Shown here: piece after piece, positions 16,288-25,056 of the stretch
Position numbering within the stretch: position 1 is the first letter of the stretch
Layout of the letters: each line of letters begins with the position of its first letter
Assembly: GCF_017795745.1 (NCBI RefSeq)
Contig: NZ_CP059067.1
Span: forward strand, 1,240,001-1,304,000
Length of the DNA: 64,000 nucleotides
Source: Rhizobacter sp. AJA081-3
GTDB lineage: Bacteria; Pseudomonadota; Gammaproteobacteria; Burkholderiales; Burkholderiaceae_C
Direction of reading: 5' to 3'
Made by a program: the position numbers and the translations under genes
The notes under the pieces: generated by a model
What the model saw: the letters and a program-made list of their open reading frames with translations, nothing else
Told to the model about the DNA's origin: nothing
The model's database searches: none

Positions 16288-16619
16288 GCGGGCGCGGATT
16301 CTGCCAGAGAGGCCGCCGCCGATCGCTGGGCGGACGTGGGGGTCCATTCTTGGGGGGTGGGCAAAAGTGTGTACTTCCGCACGCTGAATCACCTGCTGAA
16401 GCACAACGCCATGACGCAATGACTGTGGGGGAGCCCCCCGCATGGAGGGTTGCGGCGGACATGGCGCCAAACATAATTCGTCACAAGTTGAAGGGTGCCA
16501 AGGAAGTAGCAGGTGGCCCTCGCGATCCGATTCTGGCTGGTCGTCTGAGCGGGGTCTGGCTGACGCACCAGTTCACATTGCGACCACGCGGCATTCGCTG
16601 CTGCGGCACAGGAGACAGA
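16288..16619. other. Divergent intergenic region upstream of the EPS operon
   Basis: These 332 bases separate the minus-strand sugar dehydrogenase from the first plus-strand EPS gene. The stretch is less coding-like than its surroundings and includes a short AT-richer part (ACATAATTCGTCACAAG near 16470). It should hold promoters for both directions. I could not find a convincing sigma-70 pair or a GG-N10-GC sigma-54 element. Confidence 0.4.
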
Positions 16620-18017
16620 ATGTTCCGCGCCTTTCACCACCGTGCATACGCTGCAGTGCTTCTCGATGCCGGCATGGACGCCTTGCTGGGGTTCCTCGCC
16701 GTGCTGATCGCGGCCTGGACAATCAGCGCGGTGCCGATGAGCGAGTTCGGCCGGACGCTGGCCAACCCTTCGGTCATGCTCGCTGCCTCGGGTTTCGCGG
16801 TCTGCATGGCGATGCTCCAGTCGTTCCTGGGGCTGTATCGCCAGGCGGGCCTGTCCTTCGCATCCCAGCTCGCCCGGCTGCTCGTGGCGATGAGCGTCGG
16901 TGGCTACTTGACCTACTTGGTTCTGAAGGAGGTCGGTTTCGACGGCCATCCGAGCCGCCTCGTCGGCTACTCCGTCGTGAACCTGATCTTGGCGATCCTC
17001 CTGGTCCGCGGCACGATCATGCTCGTGCGCGCTGCCCAAGGGTCCAGCCGCGTGTTGATCGTGGGCACCGGCCCCGAAGCTGTCTCTGTGGCGAACGACC
17101 TGCGTCGCAGCTCGCGCGTGAGCGGAGAGGTCATCGGCTTCTACCCGACCCCGGCCGTGGCGCCAGACCAGAACATCGACGGCAAGCTGTTGCTCGACGC
17201 GCGAGTGCCGCTGGAACAACTGGCCCGCGAGCTCGAGATCGACTCGATCATCGTCGCCACACGCGAACAGCGCGGTGGCGCGATGCCTATGGATCAACTG
17301 GTGATCTGCCGGTCAATGGGCATCCCGGTCATGGATCTCGCAGGCTTCTACGAGCGCACGCACGCCGAGGTCCCGCTGGACAGCCTGAAGGCCAGCTGGC
17401 TCGTCTACGGGCCGGGTTTCGTGCAGGGGCGTGTTCGCCAGGCGCTCAAGCGCGGGTTCGACATCGTGACCTCATCGATTCTGCTCGTGCTCGCCTTGCC
17501 GGTGATGATCGCTGCTGCCGTGGCGATCAAGCTCGACAGCCGCGGGCCCCTGATCTACAGGCAGGAGCGCGTGGGGCTGGGTGGTCGCAGTTTCATGTGC
17601 CTGAAGTTCCGCAGCATGTGCACGGACGCGGAGCGCGACGGCGTGGCGCGTTGGGCCACCAAGAATGACGCCCGGGTGACGCGTGTCGGGCGCATCATCC
17701 GCAAGGCGCGAATTGATGAGCTTCCCCAATTGTTCAGCGTGCTCAAGGGCGAAATGAGCATCGTCGGGCCGCGCCCGGAGCGGCCCAGCTTCGTCAAGGA
17801 ACTGCAGAGCAAGGTCGCGTTCTATGACCTGCGCCATACCGTGAAGCCCGGCGTGACCGGCTGGGCCCAGGTGCGCTACTGTTATGGTGCCTCGGTCGAG
17901 GACGCGCGCCGCAAGCATCAGTTCGACCTGTACTACATCAAGAACAACTCCCTGCTGCTCGACATCGTGATCCTGATCGAGACGGTGAGCGTCGTGCTCT
18001 TCGGCGAAGGGCAGTAA
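16620..18017 (+). CDS. Undecaprenyl-phosphate glycosylphosphotransferase starting EPS synthesis
   Basis: The 465-residue protein is a polyisoprenyl-phosphate hexose-1-phosphate transferase (WbaP/EpsB type). Four or more N-terminal helices are followed by a Rossmann-like CoA-binding fold (RVLIVGTGPEAVSVANDL) and a C-terminal bacterial sugar-transferase domain with KFRSMCTDAERDG, RIDELPQLFSVLKGEMSIVG (split by the usual variable residues) and GPRPERPSF. It transfers the first sugar-phosphate of the repeat unit to the lipid carrier at the inner membrane. The start at 16620 follows an AGGAGA ribosome-binding site; a 90-codon in-frame extension upstream is non-conserved. It is typical of the XrtA/PEP-CTERM-linked EPS loci, where it comes first. 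Confidence 0.93.
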   Translation: MFRAFHHRAYAAVLLDAGMDALLGFLAVLIAAWTISAVPMSEFGRTLANPSVMLAASGFAVCMAMLQSFLGLYRQAGLSFASQLARLLVAMSVGGYLTYLVLKEVGFDGHPSRLVGYSVVNLILAILLVRGTIMLVRAAQGSSRVLIVGTGPEAVSVANDLRRSSRVSGEVIGFYPTPAVAPDQNIDGKLLLDARVPLEQLARELEIDSIIVATREQRGGAMPMDQLVICRSMGIPVMDLAGFYERTHAEVPLDSLKASWLVYGPGFVQGRVRQALKRGFDIVTSSILLVLALPVMIAAAVAIKLDSRGPLIYRQERVGLGGRSFMCLKFRSMCTDAERDGVARWATKNDARVTRVGRIIRKARIDELPQLFSVLKGEMSIVGPRPERPSFVKELQSKVAFYDLRHTVKPGVTGWAQVRYCYGASVEDARRKHQFDLYYIKNNSLLLDIVILIETVSVVLFGEGQ

Positions 18018-18185: not shown

Positions 18186-18821
18186 ATGGGAATGAACTTT
18201 TCGGTGACTTTCGCCAAGGTGTGGGCCACCCTTGCCTTCGCGATCGGCCTGCTCGGCCTGTCCGGGTGTGCGAGCAACAGCGGCTACGCGCCGGCGCCTT
18301 CTTCGGTGCCTTCCGTCGAGCACAGATACAAGGTCGGTCCGCTGGACGTGCTGGCCATCACCGTCTGGCGAAACCCCGAGTTGTCCACCACGGTCACCGT
18401 GCGTCCTGACGGTCGCATCTCGATGCCCTTGATCGATGACGTGATGGCGGCTGGGAAGAACCCCAGCGAAGTCGCGCGGGAACTTGAAAAAGGCTTGGCC
18501 AAGCTGTTGCGCGATCCGTCCGTGAAGGTCATCGTGAGCGGCTTCCAGGGCATCTACGGGGAGCAGATCCGCATCGTGGGCGAGGCAGCCAGGCCGCAGG
18601 CAGTGCCCTTCCGACAGGAGATGACGGTTCTCGACGTGATGATCCAGGCTGGCGGGCTGACCGACTACGCCGACGGCAATGCCGCCGTGCTCGTGCGCGG
18701 CTCCGAAAAAGGCAGGCAGTACAGCTTGCGATTGAAGGACTTGCTCAAGCGAGGCGACATCTCCGCCAATGCGCCGGTCCTGCCGGGCGACATCATCATC
18801 GTTCCGCAAAGCTGGTTCTAA
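18186..18821 (+). CDS. Polysaccharide export lipoprotein (Wza/EpsE-like)
   Basis: The 211-residue protein has a lipoprotein signal ending in LGLSGC (lipidated Cys28). A Poly_export domain follows (HRYKVGPLDVLAITVWRNPEL...VRPDGRISMPLIDDV) and then a SLBB-like domain (IRIVGEAARPQAVPF). It is shorter than Escherichia coli Wza and fits the single-SLBB subfamily found beside PEP-CTERM-linked EPS genes. It would form the periplasmic/outer-membrane part of the export channel, together with the Wzz-like protein next door and perhaps the barrel at 21439. It lies 168 bases after the phosphotransferase. Confidence 0.93.
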   Translation: MGMNFSVTFAKVWATLAFAIGLLGLSGCASNSGYAPAPSSVPSVEHRYKVGPLDVLAITVWRNPELSTTVTVRPDGRISMPLIDDVMAAGKNPSEVARELEKGLAKLLRDPSVKVIVSGFQGIYGEQIRIVGEAARPQAVPFRQEMTVLDVMIQAGGLTDYADGNAAVLVRGSEKGRQYSLRLKDLLKRGDISANAPVLPGDIIIVPQSWF

Positions 18822-18992: not shown

Positions 18993-20534
18993 ATGAACGA
19001 CGCACTTCGTCTCGGCCTGATTCGAGCCAGTGGCGCATGGCGCTACCGCTGGGTGGGCGTGACTGTCGCCTGGGTTGTGGCGCTGCTCGCCGCCGCGGGC
19101 CTGCATTTCTTCAAAGATCGCTACGAAGCAAGTGCGCGTGTCCACGTGAATACGCAGACCGTGCTCAAGCCCCTGATGGCTCAGCTGGCAGTTCAACCCG
19201 ACATCGACCAGCAGGTGCGCATGCTGGCCCGGACGCTGATCTCTCGGCCGCGGATCGAACAACTGATCGACTCGCTCGACTTCGCGGAGAAGCAAGACGG
19301 TCCGCGCGTGCGCGAGCGGATCGTCAACGACCTTGTCGCTGCCATCAAGCTCGAAGGCAGCACGTCAGGAAACCTGTACACCATCAGTTATCGCGATCGC
19401 GATCCCGTCCGCGCAAGGCGGCTGGTGGAAACACTGGTCAACCTCTTCGTCGAATCGAGCGCGGTCAGCAAGCGCCGCGACTCCGAGCGTGCCCGCGAGT
19501 TCATCGACGAGCAGATCGTCGAGAACGAGAAGAAGCTGACCGAGGCGGAGTCGCGCCTGAAGGATTTCAAGCTGAAGAACTTCGGCATGTCCGGCGCGAC
19601 CAACCAGGACTTCTTTGCACGGATGGCTACGACGTCGGACGAAGTCAATCGACTTCGCCTTGAACTGAACGCCGCCGAGCAGGCGCGCGATGCGTTGAAG
19701 CGAGAGCTCAGTTCCGAAGCGCCGCAGTTGCCTGCGGAAGCCTTGCAGGCCCGAGCGCCCATGGCTCCGAGTGAGCTCGAGACTCGACTCGACGCTCAGC
19801 GTCGAATTCTGGACGACCTCCTGCGCCGCTTCACTGAAGTTCATCCGGACGTGATTGCCGCGCGGCGCAACATCGCCCAGATCGAGCGGCAGCGCAAGGA
19901 AGAAGCCGACGCGGCGCGAAACGGCGCGCGCGGCATGGCGCCGACGAATCCGGTATTCCAGCAACTTCGTGTTTCGCTCGCGCAGGCGGAAGCGCAGGTG
20001 GCTTCGCTGCGTTCGCAGCTCGGTGTTCAGCAAGGCCGACTCGATCTGGTCCGCAGCCAGGCCTCGAAGATGCCTCAGGTCGAGGCGGAGCTGGCGCAGC
20101 TCAATCGGGACTACGACGTCATTCGCCGCAACTACCAGCAACTGGTCGAGCGGCGGGAATCGGCCTCCCTCGGCATCAAACTCGACGACTCCGCGCAGTT
20201 GGCCGACTTCCGGATCATCGAGCCGGCGATGGTCGCGCCCAAGCCGGTGTTCCCGTCGCGCAGCGTTCTGGCACTTGCGGCGGTGATCGCGTCCATTGCC
20301 GCTGGCATCGCAGCAGCGTTCGGCATGACATTCGTTTTCCCGGCCTTGTTCGACGAGAAACAACTGCAGGCGGTCACCGATCGCCCGGTCATCGGCAGTG
20401 TGTCCGTCGTGCTCGACAGTGCCGGTCAGCGGGCTCACCGGTGGCAGATGTTCCAGTTCGGCGGCACGGCTGGGCTGCTGATCTTGGCCAGCGTGGCGTG
20501 GCTGGGCTGGGTGGTCGTGAGCAGCAGAATCTAA
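18993..20534 (+). CDS. Polysaccharide chain-length determinant (Wzz/EpsF-like)
   Basis: This is a 513-residue PCP-type inner-membrane protein. One N-terminal helix (VGVTVAWVVALLAAAGLHFF) precedes a Wzz domain (YEASARVHVNTQTVLKPL) and a long coiled-coil periplasmic region (residues about 170-390, rich in Glu, Arg, Leu and Gln). C-terminal helices (SVLALAAVIASIAAGIAAAF and a last one at LLILASVAWLGWVV) follow, with the PCP-linked motif ending in TDRPVIGSV between them. It sets chain length and links the kinase to the export lipoprotein. The kinase domain is encoded separately by the next gene, as usual in Proteobacteria of this locus type. Confidence 0.93.
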   Translation: MNDALRLGLIRASGAWRYRWVGVTVAWVVALLAAAGLHFFKDRYEASARVHVNTQTVLKPLMAQLAVQPDIDQQVRMLARTLISRPRIEQLIDSLDFAEKQDGPRVRERIVNDLVAAIKLEGSTSGNLYTISYRDRDPVRARRLVETLVNLFVESSAVSKRRDSERAREFIDEQIVENEKKLTEAESRLKDFKLKNFGMSGATNQDFFARMATTSDEVNRLRLELNAAEQARDALKRELSSEAPQLPAEALQARAPMAPSELETRLDAQRRILDDLLRRFTEVHPDVIAARRNIAQIERQRKEEADAARNGARGMAPTNPVFQQLRVSLAQAEAQVASLRSQLGVQQGRLDLVRSQASKMPQVEAELAQLNRDYDVIRRNYQQLVERRESASLGIKLDDSAQLADFRIIEPAMVAPKPVFPSRSVLALAAVIASIAAGIAAAFGMTFVFPALFDEKQLQAVTDRPVIGSVSVVLDSAGQRAHRWQMFQFGGTAGLLILASVAWLGWVVVSSRI

Positions 20535-20546
20535 TCCGGGGCATCC

Positions 20547-21467
20547 GTGAGCATCATTGAACAGGCAACCAAGCGACTGGAGCAACTGCGCCAGGCCGGC
20601 GTCGAAGTGTCCTGGCAGCAGCAGACGGCTGTCCCAGCAGCCGGTGCATCGGCAGACGTCGCTGCCCGCGCCTCGCGGCAAGACGCGGGCGATGCCCTTG
20701 TCAGGAAAACGCCCGCCGAACCGGCTTCGCCGCCCAAGGCATCGAAGTCGATCGAACTCGATCTCCAGAAGTTGGCGGAGTCGCTCATGCTGGTGCCGGG
20801 CAATCAGCACCAGGAGCTCGCTGCCGAGTTCCGGGGTATCAAGCGACCGCTCGTCGCCAATCTCGTCAGCGGGGCCGGCGCAGCGCTTCCGGGCAGCAAT
20901 CTCATCGTGGTGACAAGTGCCGTGCCGGGCGAAGGAAAGACCTTCTGCGCGATCAATCTGGCGCTGAGCATGGCTGCGGAGGTGGACAAGACGGTGCTCT
21001 TGGTGGACGCCGATGTGCTGAAACCCTCCGTGGCCAGCCGACTCGGTATCGAGGCCCGTGCGGGCCTGCTCGATTTGCTGTCGAATCCGAGCATCGACCT
21101 GTCCGACTTGCTGTTGAAGACGAATATCCCCAAGTTCACGGTGCTGCCGGCCGGCAAGCCGCGCGCCGACTCGGCGGAACTGCTGGCGGGTGGGCACATG
21201 AAGCAGCTCTTCGATGAGCTGGCACAGCGCTACCCAGATCGCATCATCATAGTGGACGCCCCGCCCCTGTTGCCTACGACCGAGGCGCGTACGCTGGCGA
21301 CCCGTGCAGGGCAGGTTGTGATGATCGTCGATGCCGGAAGCACGTCGCAGGGCGTCCTGACCGAGGCCTTCGGGACGATCAAGGACTGCAAGAACGTGAT
21401 GTCGATCCTCAATCGCCGCAGCGGCATCCTGCGCAACTATGGCAATGGTTATGGCTACGGCGACTGA
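20547..21467 (+). CDS. BY-type tyrosine autokinase of the EPS system
   Basis: This is a 306-residue cytoplasmic P-loop kinase. Walker A is SAVPGEGKT (124-132), Walker A' is LLVDADVLKPS (151-161) and Walker B is IIIVDAPP (near 233-240). The C-terminus is a short tyrosine cluster (NYGNGYGYGD), the expected autophosphorylation site. It partners with the Wzz-like protein to control polymerisation and export. The start codon is GTG at 20547, 12 bases after the upstream gene. Its final 29 bases are shared with the most upstream start of the next gene. It matches the XrtA-associated kinase type; the first 110 residues are a variable linker. Confidence 0.92.
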   Translation: MSIIEQATKRLEQLRQAGVEVSWQQQTAVPAAGASADVAARASRQDAGDALVRKTPAEPASPPKASKSIELDLQKLAESLMLVPGNQHQELAAEFRGIKRPLVANLVSGAGAALPGSNLIVVTSAVPGEGKTFCAINLALSMAAEVDKTVLLVDADVLKPSVASRLGIEARAGLLDLLSNPSIDLSDLLLKTNIPKFTVLPAGKPRADSAELLAGGHMKQLFDELAQRYPDRIIIVDAPPLLPTTEARTLATRAGQVVMIVDAGSTSQGVLTEAFGTIKDCKNVMSILNRRSGILRNYGNGYGYGD

Positions 21468-23007
21468 CCGTCGGGCCGGTGTGTCGAGACTCGGCCCCGT
21501 GGCCGTCCTGATTGGGCTGGGTGCCTTTGGCGATCACGTCGGCGCGCAGGCGTTGCGCATTCAGCCGGAGGTCGAGAGTACGGTCACCGTGACCAACAAC
21601 GCCTCGTTCACCTCCCGTGACCAGGCCCAGTCCGACACGATCATCAGCGTGAATCCGCGCCTTCATGTGACCTCTCGCGGGGGGCGGGCAGCCATCGAGG
21701 GGACCTTCGGACTCGAGGCTGTCACCTACGTCAACAACGCGCAGGACTCGATCGTCCGCCCGCGTGGCTCACTCAGTCTGCGAAGCCAGCTGGTCGAGCG
21801 CTTGATGTATCTCGACGCATCGGTGACTGCCGATCGCATCAGCGCAGATCCCTTTGCAGCACGGCCGGAGAGTGCGACTGCATTCAACGACTACACGCAG
21901 ATGCGGTACCGCTTCACGCCGTACATCGAGCGCGAGCTGACGCCGTCGCTGTCCCTGCTGGCTCGAACCGATCACATCGTCACGCGGCGCGTGGGTTCGC
22001 CCACGGGTGCGGCCTCGACCGAAGTGGCGCGCGATTCGCACGAGCAGGAGCAGACCCTGCGTCTTGCGCAGCGCCCGCAGCCGTTCGGCTGGACCGCCGA
22101 ACTCACCCGTCAGGAGACTCGACTTCGCTACTCGGACCAGGCCATCCTGACGCAGACCGCCGCGCGGGCGATCGGCACCTATGCCGTCGGACCTCAGTTG
22201 ATCGTCGGAGTCAGCGTCGGCCGCGAGAACAACGAGTATTCTTTGATCGACCGTTCAGATTCGATCGTGGGTGTCAGGCTCAACTGGCAGCCGAACGAGC
22301 GTGGTGAAGTGAACGCATCGATCGAGAAGCGCTTCTTCGGCACGGGTGGCGACCTCGAGTGGCGCCAGCGCTCGCCGTTCCTCGGCTTCTCGATCCGTGC
22401 GAACCGCACGCCGGTGGCTCAGTCCGGCTCCCATCTCTTCGGGGCAGCCGGCGACAATCTCGTGAGCTTGCTCGACGGGGTGCTGACGACCCGCTATCCC
22501 GACCCCGGCCAACGCAGCACGGCTGTGAATGACCTGGTTCGGCAACTGAACCTCCCAGGCACATTGACTGGCCCGGTCGAGCTGTACACCAGCTATGCCC
22601 AGCTGCAGGACAACGTCTCCGCCACCGCACTCTTCTTCGGGCGCCTGACAACGGCGTCCGCGACCGTCTTCGGCCGCCGGCGCACGCGACTGGCGGACGT
22701 GGAGGATGTCCTTGCACCGGCCTCACTTTCATCCGACAACGTTCAGTATGGCGTTGAGATCGACGTGTCGCGGCGGCTGTCCCCGGTGCTGACGGCTGAC
22801 GGCGGCATTCGCTATACGCGCATCGAAGGCCTCGGCATCCGCGACGGGCAGGCCAGCCGCGACGCCGCGATCCGCTTCGGCATGACCCGGATCGTGAGCA
22901 TCAACACCCGAATCAGCGCGGGGCTGCGATACCAGACGGTGTCGTCGTCCGTGACGAGCCCGGCGAACGAGATGGCCGTCGTCGGGGCCTTGTTGCACCG
23001 GTTCTGA
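21439..23007 (+). CDS. Outer-membrane beta-barrel protein of the EPS/PEP-CTERM locus
   Basis: The 522-residue protein has a signal peptide (cleavage likely after HVGAQA) and alternating beta-strand character throughout, with many Arg/Thr/Tyr repeats such as RLTTASATVFGRRRTRL. The C-terminus ends in an aromatic residue (GALLHRF), as in outer-membrane barrels. It fits the PEP-CTERM-associated outer-membrane family usually found between the kinase and the ATPase, thought to be an outer-membrane export component. ATG 21439 overlaps the kinase gene; later in-frame starts at 21445, 21451 or GTG 21481 are possible. Confidence 0.82.
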   Translation: MAMVMATATDRRAGVSRLGPVAVLIGLGAFGDHVGAQALRIQPEVESTVTVTNNASFTSRDQAQSDTIISVNPRLHVTSRGGRAAIEGTFGLEAVTYVNNAQDSIVRPRGSLSLRSQLVERLMYLDASVTADRISADPFAARPESATAFNDYTQMRYRFTPYIERELTPSLSLLARTDHIVTRRVGSPTGAASTEVARDSHEQEQTLRLAQRPQPFGWTAELTRQETRLRYSDQAILTQTAARAIGTYAVGPQLIVGVSVGRENNEYSLIDRSDSIVGVRLNWQPNERGEVNASIEKRFFGTGGDLEWRQRSPFLGFSIRANRTPVAQSGSHLFGAAGDNLVSLLDGVLTTRYPDPGQRSTAVNDLVRQLNLPGTLTGPVELYTSYAQLQDNVSATALFFGRLTTASATVFGRRRTRLADVEDVLAPASLSSDNVQYGVEIDVSRRLSPVLTADGGIRYTRIEGLGIRDGQASRDAAIRFGMTRIVSINTRISAGLRYQTVSSSVTSPANEMAVVGALLHRF

Positions 23008-23016
23008 GCCAATTCC

Positions 23017-25056
23017 ATGTACGAATCGCATTTCGGGCTGAGTGCCCCTCCGTTCCAGCTCAGTCCCGACCCGAGCTTCTACTTCGACAGCAAGGGCCAC
23101 AGCAATGCGCTCGCATATCTGCGCTTCGGGGCTTACCAGGGCGAGGGCTTCATCGTCGTCACCGGAGAGATCGGTGCGGGCAAGACGACGCTGGTGCGGG
23201 CGCTGCTGTCCGAGCTGAACACCGACAAGGTCGTCGCCGCTCAGGTGGTGAGCACGCAACTCGAGGCCGGGGACCTGCTGCGTTCGATTCTCACCGCCTT
23301 CGGCGTGAGCTCGGCCGGTTTGACGAAGGCCCAGCTGATCGCTTCGCTCGAGGCCTTCCTGACTCTGCTTGCAACGCGCGGCCAGCGGGCGCTTCTGATC
23401 ATCGACGAGGCCCAGAACCTGAACCTGGAGGCTGTCGAAGAGATGCGCATGCTGTCGAACTTCCAGTTCGATCAGCATGCACTGCTGCAGAGCTTCCTGG
23501 TGGGGCAACCTGAACTGCGGCGCTTGCTCCAGTCGAAGTCGATGGAGCAGTTGCGACAGCGTGTCATCGCGTCCTGCCACCTCGGGCCGCTCGATCTGCC
23601 GGAAACCCGCGCCTATGTCGAACACCGGCTGCGCAAGGTAGGCTGGGAGGACAGGCCGCATTTCGAGCCCGAAGCCTTCGACGTGATTCATGCGGCGACG
23701 GGCGGCATTCCGCGGCGCATCAACGTCCTGTGCAACCGGGTCATGCTGGCGGCCTTCCTGGCTGAGAACGACCAGATCACCGCAGAGTCGGTGAAGGGCG
23801 TGGCCGATGATCTTCGCGCCGAAGTCGGGGAGCAGGCCAGCGTGGGTCAGGCGCCCCGCGGGCCGGTTGCCGCACCATCTGCCGTCAAGGCGTTGCCGTC
23901 GGCCGCCGAGGTGATGAGGCTTCACCGCACGCCGGGTGCGAAGCCTGAGCGGCCTGTGCTGCTGGTGGCGGATTCGCCGATCGACTACCTGAAGTTGCGA
24001 GCCCTCGCGGCCAGACTCGAAGCCGCAGGCTCGACCTGCGCGCCGGTCCTCGTGTCCTCGCGCAGCTTGCGTGACGTGCGCAGCGATGAAACCGCTGCCG
24101 ATGCGTTGCCCGCACCCATGCTTGAGGTCTGCCTCAATGCAGGCACGAACGAGGGTGCGGAGATGGTCGCGCAGGTTCTGCTTCGATTCGACGCCCAGAT
24201 CGTCGATCTGGCCCCTGCGGCCGTGGCCGTCATCGGCAATGGCGATGCCGTGCTGGCCTGTGCCCTGGCTGCGAACCTGCGAGGCATCCCGTTGCTCCGA
24301 CTCGATGGCGGACTGCGTGAAGCGCCCACGTCGTCGCCGGGCGGCGCCAATCCCGCGCTGGTCGATCGGCTGGCTTCGGCGGTGTTCACTCGCAGCGTGA
24401 ACTCGCACTACGCGCTGTACCGCGAAGGAATCCCCTCGGAACGCGTGCAGTGTGTTGGGAGTCTGTTCGGTGCCTTGCTCGAGTCCACCCGCGCAGCGCT
24501 GCCGGAAGCGGCAGAAGTCCTGCGCCGATTCGGGCTGCCCACTGCGGCGCTCGACACCGCCCGACCCTTCGCATTGCTGTCGCTGACCGGTACCGCGGAG
24601 GCTTCGATGGCCAGCCGGCTCGAAGCACTCTTTGCTCAGATCAAGGGAAGCATCCCCATGCTCTGGGTCGCCGATCGGTCGACGGCCGATGCGATCCGCA
24701 CGGCCGCGCTCGAGAGCCGGCTCGAACGCCATCGCGTCACGCTGCTGCCGTCGCTCGGACTTCTCGACGGCTTGGCGCTGATGTCGCGTGCGAGCCTGGT
24801 GATCGGCGACGCGAGGGCAAGGTGGGTCGAAGAGGCCGCCTGCCTCGGAAAGCCTTACCTGGAACTGGCTGACGACGGCGCCAATGCTGCGTCCCTGGCT
24901 CGAGCCGTCGACGAAATCCTCGCCGGAGAGCCGGTTGCGGGCGAGCCTTCTGCCGACCAGCGTGCGGTCGAGGCGGTGCTGCAGTGGCTGGCCGTACTCG
25001 AGACCGAGCCGGCGCACGGCGCGCGAGCAGCGCAGGAGCCGGGCCGGAAGCGATGA
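23017..25056 (+). CDS. ExeA-like AAA ATPase fused to a degenerate UDP-GlcNAc 2-epimerase-like domain
   Basis: Residues 1 to about 275 form a GspA/ExeA-type ATPase, the kind found in XrtA-linked EPS loci: MYESHFGLSAPPFQLSPDP start, Walker A GEIGAGKT (50-57) and Walker B LLIIDEAQ (126-133). After a Pro/Ala linker, residues about 310-650 resemble WecB-type UDP-N-acetylglucosamine 2-epimerases in order of motifs: GGLRE, NPALVDRLASAVFTRS, YREGIPSERVQCVGS and WVEEAACLGKP. The catalytic and UDP-binding signatures of WecB are changed: EAGLR reads DGGLR, the HRREN region is SLTGTAEAS, and DSGGIQEEA reads DARARWVEEA. The second half therefore looks non-catalytic, perhaps a sugar-nucleotide sensor. The usual ATPase in such loci is about half this size. 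It overlaps the next gene by ATGA. Confidence 0.78.
   Translation: MYESHFGLSAPPFQLSPDPSFYFDSKGHSNALAYLRFGAYQGEGFIVVTGEIGAGKTTLVRALLSELNTDKVVAAQVVSTQLEAGDLLRSILTAFGVSSAGLTKAQLIASLEAFLTLLATRGQRALLIIDEAQNLNLEAVEEMRMLSNFQFDQHALLQSFLVGQPELRRLLQSKSMEQLRQRVIASCHLGPLDLPETRAYVEHRLRKVGWEDRPHFEPEAFDVIHAATGGIPRRINVLCNRVMLAAFLAENDQITAESVKGVADDLRAEVGEQASVGQAPRGPVAAPSAVKALPSAAEVMRLHRTPGAKPERPVLLVADSPIDYLKLRALAARLEAAGSTCAPVLVSSRSLRDVRSDETAADALPAPMLEVCLNAGTNEGAEMVAQVLLRFDAQIVDLAPAAVAVIGNGDAVLACALAANLRGIPLLRLDGGLREAPTSSPGGANPALVDRLASAVFTRSVNSHYALYREGIPSERVQCVGSLFGALLESTRAALPEAAEVLRRFGLPTAALDTARPFALLSLTGTAEASMASRLEALFAQIKGSIPMLWVADRSTADAIRTAALESRLERHRVTLLPSLGLLDGLALMSRASLVIGDARARWVEEAACLGKPYLELADDGANAASLARAVDEILAGEPVAGEPSADQRAVEAVLQWLAVLETEPAHGARAAQEPGRKR

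Follow-up and report, generated by a model that had tools for sequence, protein, structure and literature searches.

The ATPase recognized by the TIGR03015 model belongs to XrtA-type EPS systems, which make floc and biofilm matrix. In the unfused loci compared here (as in L053) it follows the genes for the export protein, the chain-length determinant, the tyrosine kinase and the outer membrane protein, in this order. Such unfused ATPases mostly end about 60 to 110 residues past the ATPase domain; in 27 cases the gene that follows encodes a separate epimerase. According to the accessible part of the report on Rubrivivax gelatinosus psc1, an EPS cluster found in a biofilm screen, the ATPase gene (RGS1_10397) likewise adjoins an epimerase gene (epsC, RGS1_10398) (PMC3684757). 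For the 2-epimerases, the consulted sections of the literature give the catalytic residues of E. coli WecB (D95, E117, E131 and H213), its substrate-binding set (R10, K15, E131, R135, H213, S290 and E296) and the MnaA-type allosteric UDP-GlcNAc site of the P. alvei enzyme (Q42, H43, Q45, Q69, R209 and H241; PMC11464976), as well as three dimer-interface helices and their contacts in the T. thermophilus enzyme (PMC10622841). A search of titles and abstract openings yielded neither an account of an ATPase-epimerase fusion nor a description of the role of the ATPase in XrtA-type EPS systems. The available excerpts of PMC9850573 and PMC1569441 mention neither 'ATPase' nor 'epimerase'; those of PMC4886054 name a 2-epimerase and a PEP-CTERM system, in separate passages.

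The stretch analysed here, referred to as the window, comprises 64,000 nucleotides of the genome of Rhizobacter sp. AJA081-3, and contains an EPS locus in which the two domains are encoded by a single gene (Table 1). The five genes preceding the fusion all score over the cutoffs of XrtA-system models, and the fusion occupies the place usually taken by the ATPase. Gene order is that of the unfused loci, and the window ATPase matches the entire TIGR03015 profile over cutoff, but differs from the unfused ATPases by its C-terminal 2-epimerase domain. Similarly, ATPase and epimerase are adjacent in an EPS cluster as in the described part of R. gelatinosus psc1, but as one gene rather than two (PMC3684757). 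The two exosortase-family genes of the genome (G000:C1:4534081-4534848 and G000:C1:5315240-5315965) are located far from this locus.

Table 1. Features of the window EPS locus and of the fusion gene (window positions; residue numbers refer to the fusion protein).
Feature	Position	Strand	Remarks
XrtA-system glycosyltransferase	16350..18017	+	TIGR03013
XrtA export protein	18186..18821	+	TIGR03027
Chain-length determinant	18993..20534	+	TIGR03007
Tyrosine autokinase	20547..21467	+	TIGR03018
PEP-CTERM-associated outer membrane protein	21439..23007	+	TIGR03016
Fusion gene, XrtA/PEP-CTERM-type AAA ATPase and degenerate UDP-GlcNAc 2-epimerase domain	23017..25056	+	679 aa
ATPase domain, residues 1-269	23017..23823	+	TIGR03015
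Walker A GEIGAGKTT, residues 50-58	23164..23190	+	G50 and G53-T58 invariant in 27 aligned fused proteins
Walker B LLIIDEAQ, residues 126-133	23392..23415	+	D130-Q133 invariant in 27 aligned fused proteins
Linker, residues 271-296, probably disordered	23827..23904	+	pLDDT <50 in full-length model
Degenerate epimerase domain, about residues 314-679	23956..25053	+	PF02350 match 362-622; model, Z 31.6 to 1f6d
Former GARPNFMK, now DSPIDYLK	23971..23994	+	substrate Arg gone, Lys326 retained
Former GDVNST, now GNGDAVLAC	24235..24261	+	catalytic Asp replaced by N408; new Asp D410 at interface-helix start
Former HVEAGLR, now RLDGGLRE, residues 428-435	24298..24321	+	catalytic Glu117 replaced by Asp430
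Former MPEEINR, now SPGGANP	24334..24354	+	catalytic Glu131 replaced by Gly442
Former TLHRPSN, now LSLTGTAEAS, residues 521-530	24577..24606	+	catalytic His213 replaced by Thr524
Former TDSGGLQEE, now GDARARWVEEA, residues 597-607	24805..24837	+	phosphate loop gone, ribose Glu606 retained
ATGA, 4-base overlap of fusion stop and in-frame ATG of next gene (glycosyltransferase ORF to 26198)	25053..25056	+	

The fusion gene starts with ATG and runs as an uninterrupted single frame. Its first part scores 380.2 bits against TIGR03015 (cutoff 324.5), with residues 1-269 covering the whole profile (1-269 of 269), and is the sole match over cutoff in its genome. Both GEIGAGKTT and LLIIDEAQ, which we take to be the Walker A and Walker B motifs, are present. 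Judging from these matches, this half is a full XrtA/PEP-CTERM-type ATPase, predicted to hydrolyse ATP and to serve EPS export. The second part matches Epimerase_2 (PF02350) with 83.5 bits (cutoff 30.6) over residues 362-622, while the wecB profile TIGR00236 gives 50.5 bits, well under its cutoff of 210.15. The earlier note, made from the letters of this DNA, had described an export ATPase fused to a WecB-type domain, and the profile matches confirm it.

High-GC DNA yields long chance ORFs, and several long frames met in this work (L063, L064, L067, L069, L076, L086) proved to be two genes preceded by chance upstream starts, so that a long open frame was not accepted as proof of fusion. For the window, an origin by frameshift, misassembly or mis-called ORF was nevertheless rejected, and its probability is practically nil, because a 679-aa ORF, 96% identical to the window fusion from end to end, is found in a relative (G002), and fused ORFs occur in at least 24 further genomes. 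The window region is also present in JADJJI010000001.1, from Piscinibacter sp., a genus of the Burkholderiales.

The structure of the second part was predicted and superposed on WecB, as the earlier note had suggested. The AlphaFold2 model of the domain (pLDDT 85.9, pTM 0.86) matches E. coli WecB (1f6d) with a VIA Z of 31.6 and an rmsd of 3.1 over 341 residues; the next-nearest fold is that of the GT-B glycosyltransferases, with Z 21.4. Among the 50 Foldseek matches listed, all are 2-epimerases, so titled or named MnaA or NeuC, save two CapG. The predicted fold leans on the separate enzymes, since these, all intact, supply 35 of the 64 rows of the alignment used; a full-length model built from 27 fused rows only has similar secondary structure and a pTM of 0.53. 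In the prediction, the residues after the linker form a complete epimerase-fold domain. The domain thus resembles WecB/MnaA in fold, in its match to the family profile and in its position among XrtA-locus epimerases in the tree described below, but differs from them in the absence of every catalytic residue, in a wecB score far under cutoff and in the attached ATPase.

Alignment to E. coli WecB, with residue roles as given in the consulted part of PMC11464976, revealed that none of the four catalytic residues is left in the window (D95>N408, E117>D430, E131>G442, H213>T524) and that two of the seven substrate-binding residues are retained, K15 (K326) and E296 (E606). The side chains holding the UDP phosphates (R10, H213 and S290) are all altered; R135, the two glycines of the loop and the residues aligned with the allosteric site are also missing, and the sequence has been replaced both around H213 and in the phosphate loop. 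At the six positions of the P. alvei allosteric site the window carries R, S, R, N, G and D, so that none is kept; we derived the correspondence between P. alvei and E. coli numbering from motifs, and a shift by one is possible in its first three columns, but the letters near them, SSRSLRD, include neither Gln nor His. The three motif changes listed in the earlier note, now RLDGGLRE, LSLTGTAEAS and GDARARWVEEA, were thus all recovered, and the loss of catalysis that it proposed agrees with the residues present. The two outcomes that the note would have taken as refutation, a fold other than that of an epimerase and a full set of catalytic residues, are both contradicted.

Other fusions were looked for in 60 relatives and 250 genomes of the family, in overlapping sets, followed by targeted retrieval; an ORF was counted only if the ATPase query and the epimerase query both matched it. 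At least 32 fused ORFs were obtained, from at least 25 genomes and 13 genera, all within one Burkholderiales family; thus the fusion recurs in other genomes, as the earlier note had proposed to check. Open frames of 600 or more in G028, G202 and G128:C24 contained no fusion. The last ORF added (L179 in G195, 718 aa) retains two of 11 key residues; it came after the trees and the conservation and selection statistics, which are based on at most the first 31 ORFs. L100, whose epimerase part aligns poorly and shows His in the H213 column, was omitted from the conservation statistics and from the epimerase tree, and both L100 and L101 were omitted from alignments A2 and A4. L041, the two fragments of a broken second copy in G004, was left out of the separate group, and L057-L060 and L062 were left out as duplicates.

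All 32 fused ORFs (of at least 32) retain between none and five of the 11 key residues; all 35 separate copies have 11 out of 11. Separate wecB neighbours, which the earlier note had placed in related loci, were found there in intact form. In none of 31 fused copies are three or all four of the catalytic residues present: in the 30 well-aligned ones, H213 is never found, E131 is found in two, D95 in four and E117 in seven. The separate copies are unfused XrtA-type and related enzymes, eight of which (L055, L071, L072, L088, the second ORF of L095, L097, L103 and L104) have no adjacent ATPase in the DNA examined. Outside this set, the FnlC-like enzyme of the window genome scores 9/11, and lower than full scores were also given by long-frame rows L162-L165 (11-12 of 13) and L182 (9/11); all these values are presumably ordinary for their subfamilies.

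The 30 fused rows group together in the epimerase tree, as a single clade with 100/100 support nested among XrtA-locus epimerases; its sister is an intact unfused copy (L103 in G105, support 98/92). In the ATPase tree, built without an outgroup from 31 fused and 27 separate sequences and including two very long branches (L100 and L101), fused and separate labels require two changes, one beyond a single origin. The exception is L042 of G004, a lone ATPase placed inside the fused rows. Trees therefore support one origin of the fused clade, while the branching inside it is unsure because several fused rows lie on long branches. G004 belongs to the genus of the window genome, and the ATPase of its EPS locus has no epimerase match in the following 1.7 kb. 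The epimerase domain hence appears dispensable in G004, probably by a secondary, natural loss. A flippase-like frame, recognized by eye, follows this lone ATPase.

Selection was evaluated by NG86 in eight close pairs of fused genes. For the epimerase part, dN/dS is 0.103 (window and G002), 0.132, 0.026, 0.086, 0.159, 0.285, 0.131 and 0.277, which indicates that selection acts on the dead domain; in these pairs the ATPase parts give 0.040-0.191, and six pairs of separate epimerases give 0.036-0.305, similar to the fused domains. Over longer distances, the window domain is 20-33% identical to 27 of 28 other fused copies. In terms of sequence, the dead domain is thus clearly constrained, yet strongly diverged. 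On the basis of sequence and model together, the window domain is a putative pseudoenzyme, in which the predicted fold is kept and catalytic residues are lost under purifying selection.

Beyond the family, 46 loci from the order and class levels were inspected, consisting of the best 29 and of 17 picked for long frames, the latter including every listed row of 600 or more save those of the window genome; three of the 46 duplicate places already covered (L130, L133, and L143/L170, a single place), and L133 comes from the window family. A single fusion was found, L158:1405-3609 (734 aa; L183:5905-8109 in a wider view), in a genome of another family of the same class (G702). Like the window gene, it joins ATPase and epimerase in one ORF and is surrounded by EPS-locus genes for export, chain length and a kinase; unlike it, its epimerase has all 13 checked residues and groups, in a quick tree, with the unfused ones. 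The fusion therefore appears to have arisen at least twice, because the L158 epimerase falls outside the fused clade, and loss of catalysis is not its automatic result. The proposal of a fusion followed by loss, made in the earlier note, fits the trees for the clade of the window, but not as a general sequence of events. Catalytic loss appears to belong to a single fused clade, and L158 is possibly a candidate bifunctional protein.

In 33 of the 56 unfused ATPase-epimerase pairs, a set from which the broken fusion of G004 was excluded, an in-frame epimerase start overlaps the ATPase stop by four bases. This arrangement, and the existence of the second, residue-intact fusion, make a physical association of ATPase and epimerase plausible. 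We propose that the gene of an XrtA-type EPS-export ATPase and that of a neighbouring active wecB-type epimerase, often overlapping it by four bases, would have been joined in a single event, in an ancestor shared by some members of the window family; that the epimerase half would then have lost catalysis, as judged by residues, in every fused descendant found, while retaining its fold; and that the domain may now be a permanent structural part of the ATPase. It would act as a dimerisation or docking module, fixing the oligomeric state of the ATPase or its place among the EPS-export proteins. We give about even chances to the proposal that the fused, catalytically dead epimerase serves the ATPase as such a scaffold, a role which, together with the dimer contact, we infer from sequence patterns. 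That a clade joined a neighbouring metabolic enzyme to the ATPase, losing catalysis and keeping the fold, suggests that the two proteins are physical partners, and the fusion offers a direct handle on the function of the ATPase. An evolutionary series is visible, including overlapping genes, a residue-intact fusion, dead fusions and domain loss; retention of the dead domain by many related species suggests that a former enzyme took on a structural role.

The main alternative roles concern the former active-site cleft. The earlier note had suggested an allosteric sensor, in which the dead domain still binds UDP-sugar and reports precursor supply to the ATPase. In its favour, the predicted fold is retained, and the two lobes of 2-epimerases close upon UDP-sugar binding, according to the sections available (PMC10622841, PMC11464976); moreover, of 30 fused copies, 22 retain K15 and 24 retain E296, which binds ribose, and R135 and S290 are likewise fixed in all nine copies of the b-type. 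A shared sensor should, however, preserve its pocket, and the pocket is lost or drifting: the window lacks the phosphate-holding, loop and allosteric residues listed above, and the 15 ligand and allosteric columns, nearly fixed in the 35 separate enzymes (entropy 0.04; none of 5000 random column sets as conserved), have an entropy of 2.32 in the 30 fused copies, against an all-column mean of 2.09, with 4393 of 5000 random sets as conserved. Of the columns fixed in active enzymes, fused copies even keep a smaller fraction at ligand positions than elsewhere (0.26 vs 0.37 in the a-type, 0.35 vs 0.55 in the b-type). The sensor is thus not supported, and we regard it as unlikely. An equally low probability is given to a cleft re-tooled for a new ligand or chemistry, perhaps lineage by lineage. 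In its favour, E117>G and G291>W are fixed in 9/9 b-type copies, the fold resembles GT-B glycosyltransferases, and a GT4-like Pfam model recognizes six of 29 fused domains with an E of 0.001 or better; against it, cleft residues vary widely among a-type lineages, and the sole shared new residue found lies at the start of an interface helix.

This residue is acidic and lies where the T. thermophilus enzyme has D100, an interface residue; it is present in 27 of 31 fused copies and in none of 35 separate ones. Its pairing with a basic residue is incomplete: both are present in 21 of 31 fused copies, and the window has a Leu at the partner position. Interface positions follow the consulted part of PMC10622841, and their conversion from T. 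thermophilus to E. coli numbers is our own. When ligand positions are excluded, 18 of 5000 random column sets are as conserved as the interface helices in the nine b-type copies, and 591 of 5000 in the other 21 fused copies, a weak signal, so that the window's own type shows only modest conservation. Considered by themselves, the five hydrophobic contact positions give no clear sign of conservation (equally conserved random sets: 514 of 5000 for all fused copies, 1448 of 5000 for the b-type), though hydrophobic residues fill 0.77-0.78 of their cells in fused copies against 0.48-0.49 over all columns (0.97 in separate enzymes); the window has L, L, L, N and L. The interface signal is a lead, not proof, of a retained structural role, because columns are interdependent and random columns, being scattered, make a generous control for helices, which are contiguous. 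The domain might also be a functionless, decaying remnant carried by an essential ATPase, as the long branches of fused rows and its absence from the EPS-locus ATPase of G004 would allow. This seems improbable, given that dN/dS is well under 1 in all eight pairs, that open frames are kept in at least 31 copies over 13 genera, and that all 29 fused members scanned still match PF02350. The structural role is favoured over the UDP-sugar sensor because ligand columns drift while interface helices are somewhat better kept.

A second fusion is found in the window genome about 46 kb past the end of the window gene (L036:7391-9619, 742 aa). It is equally degenerate, with HVGAGLR and DSWNVQEEA at the motif positions, and lies outside any EPS locus, directly after genes which we read, from their Pfam matches, as formate dehydrogenase-like (L036:2382-7345). 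A further possibility, which we hold only tentatively, is that the enzyme, captured by its export motor and having lost catalysis, became a dimerisation or clutch module of the AAA ATPase, which was later copied, the copy being re-used in this genus outside EPS export beside such genes. No other XrtA-type epimerase was found in this genome, where the search gave only two further Epimerase_2 genes, which we take to be FnlC-like and NeuC-like.

The neighbours of this second fusion include NuoEF-like and molybdopterin formate dehydrogenase-like genes, and it stands opposite an EamA transporter. Among seven genomes of the genus with intact b-type copies, all have the transporter and six have the dehydrogenase-like genes; the broken second copy of G004 is likewise flanked by both. 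In G012, another fusion (L050:8449-11157, 902 aa, with about 240 residues separating ATPase from epimerase) has formate dehydrogenase-like genes on its other side, and a 1046-aa fused ORF (L049:7827-10967) has 233 residues before the ATPase, perhaps from a chance upstream start. In L118 (G138) and L119 (G230) a very diverged fusion is found where the EPS genes begin, and the position behind the outer membrane protein, usual for the ATPase, is taken by an ordinary lone one. Finally, G226 carries two fusions of different type in tandem (L087/L107), with an XrtA-type glycosyltransferase gene between them.
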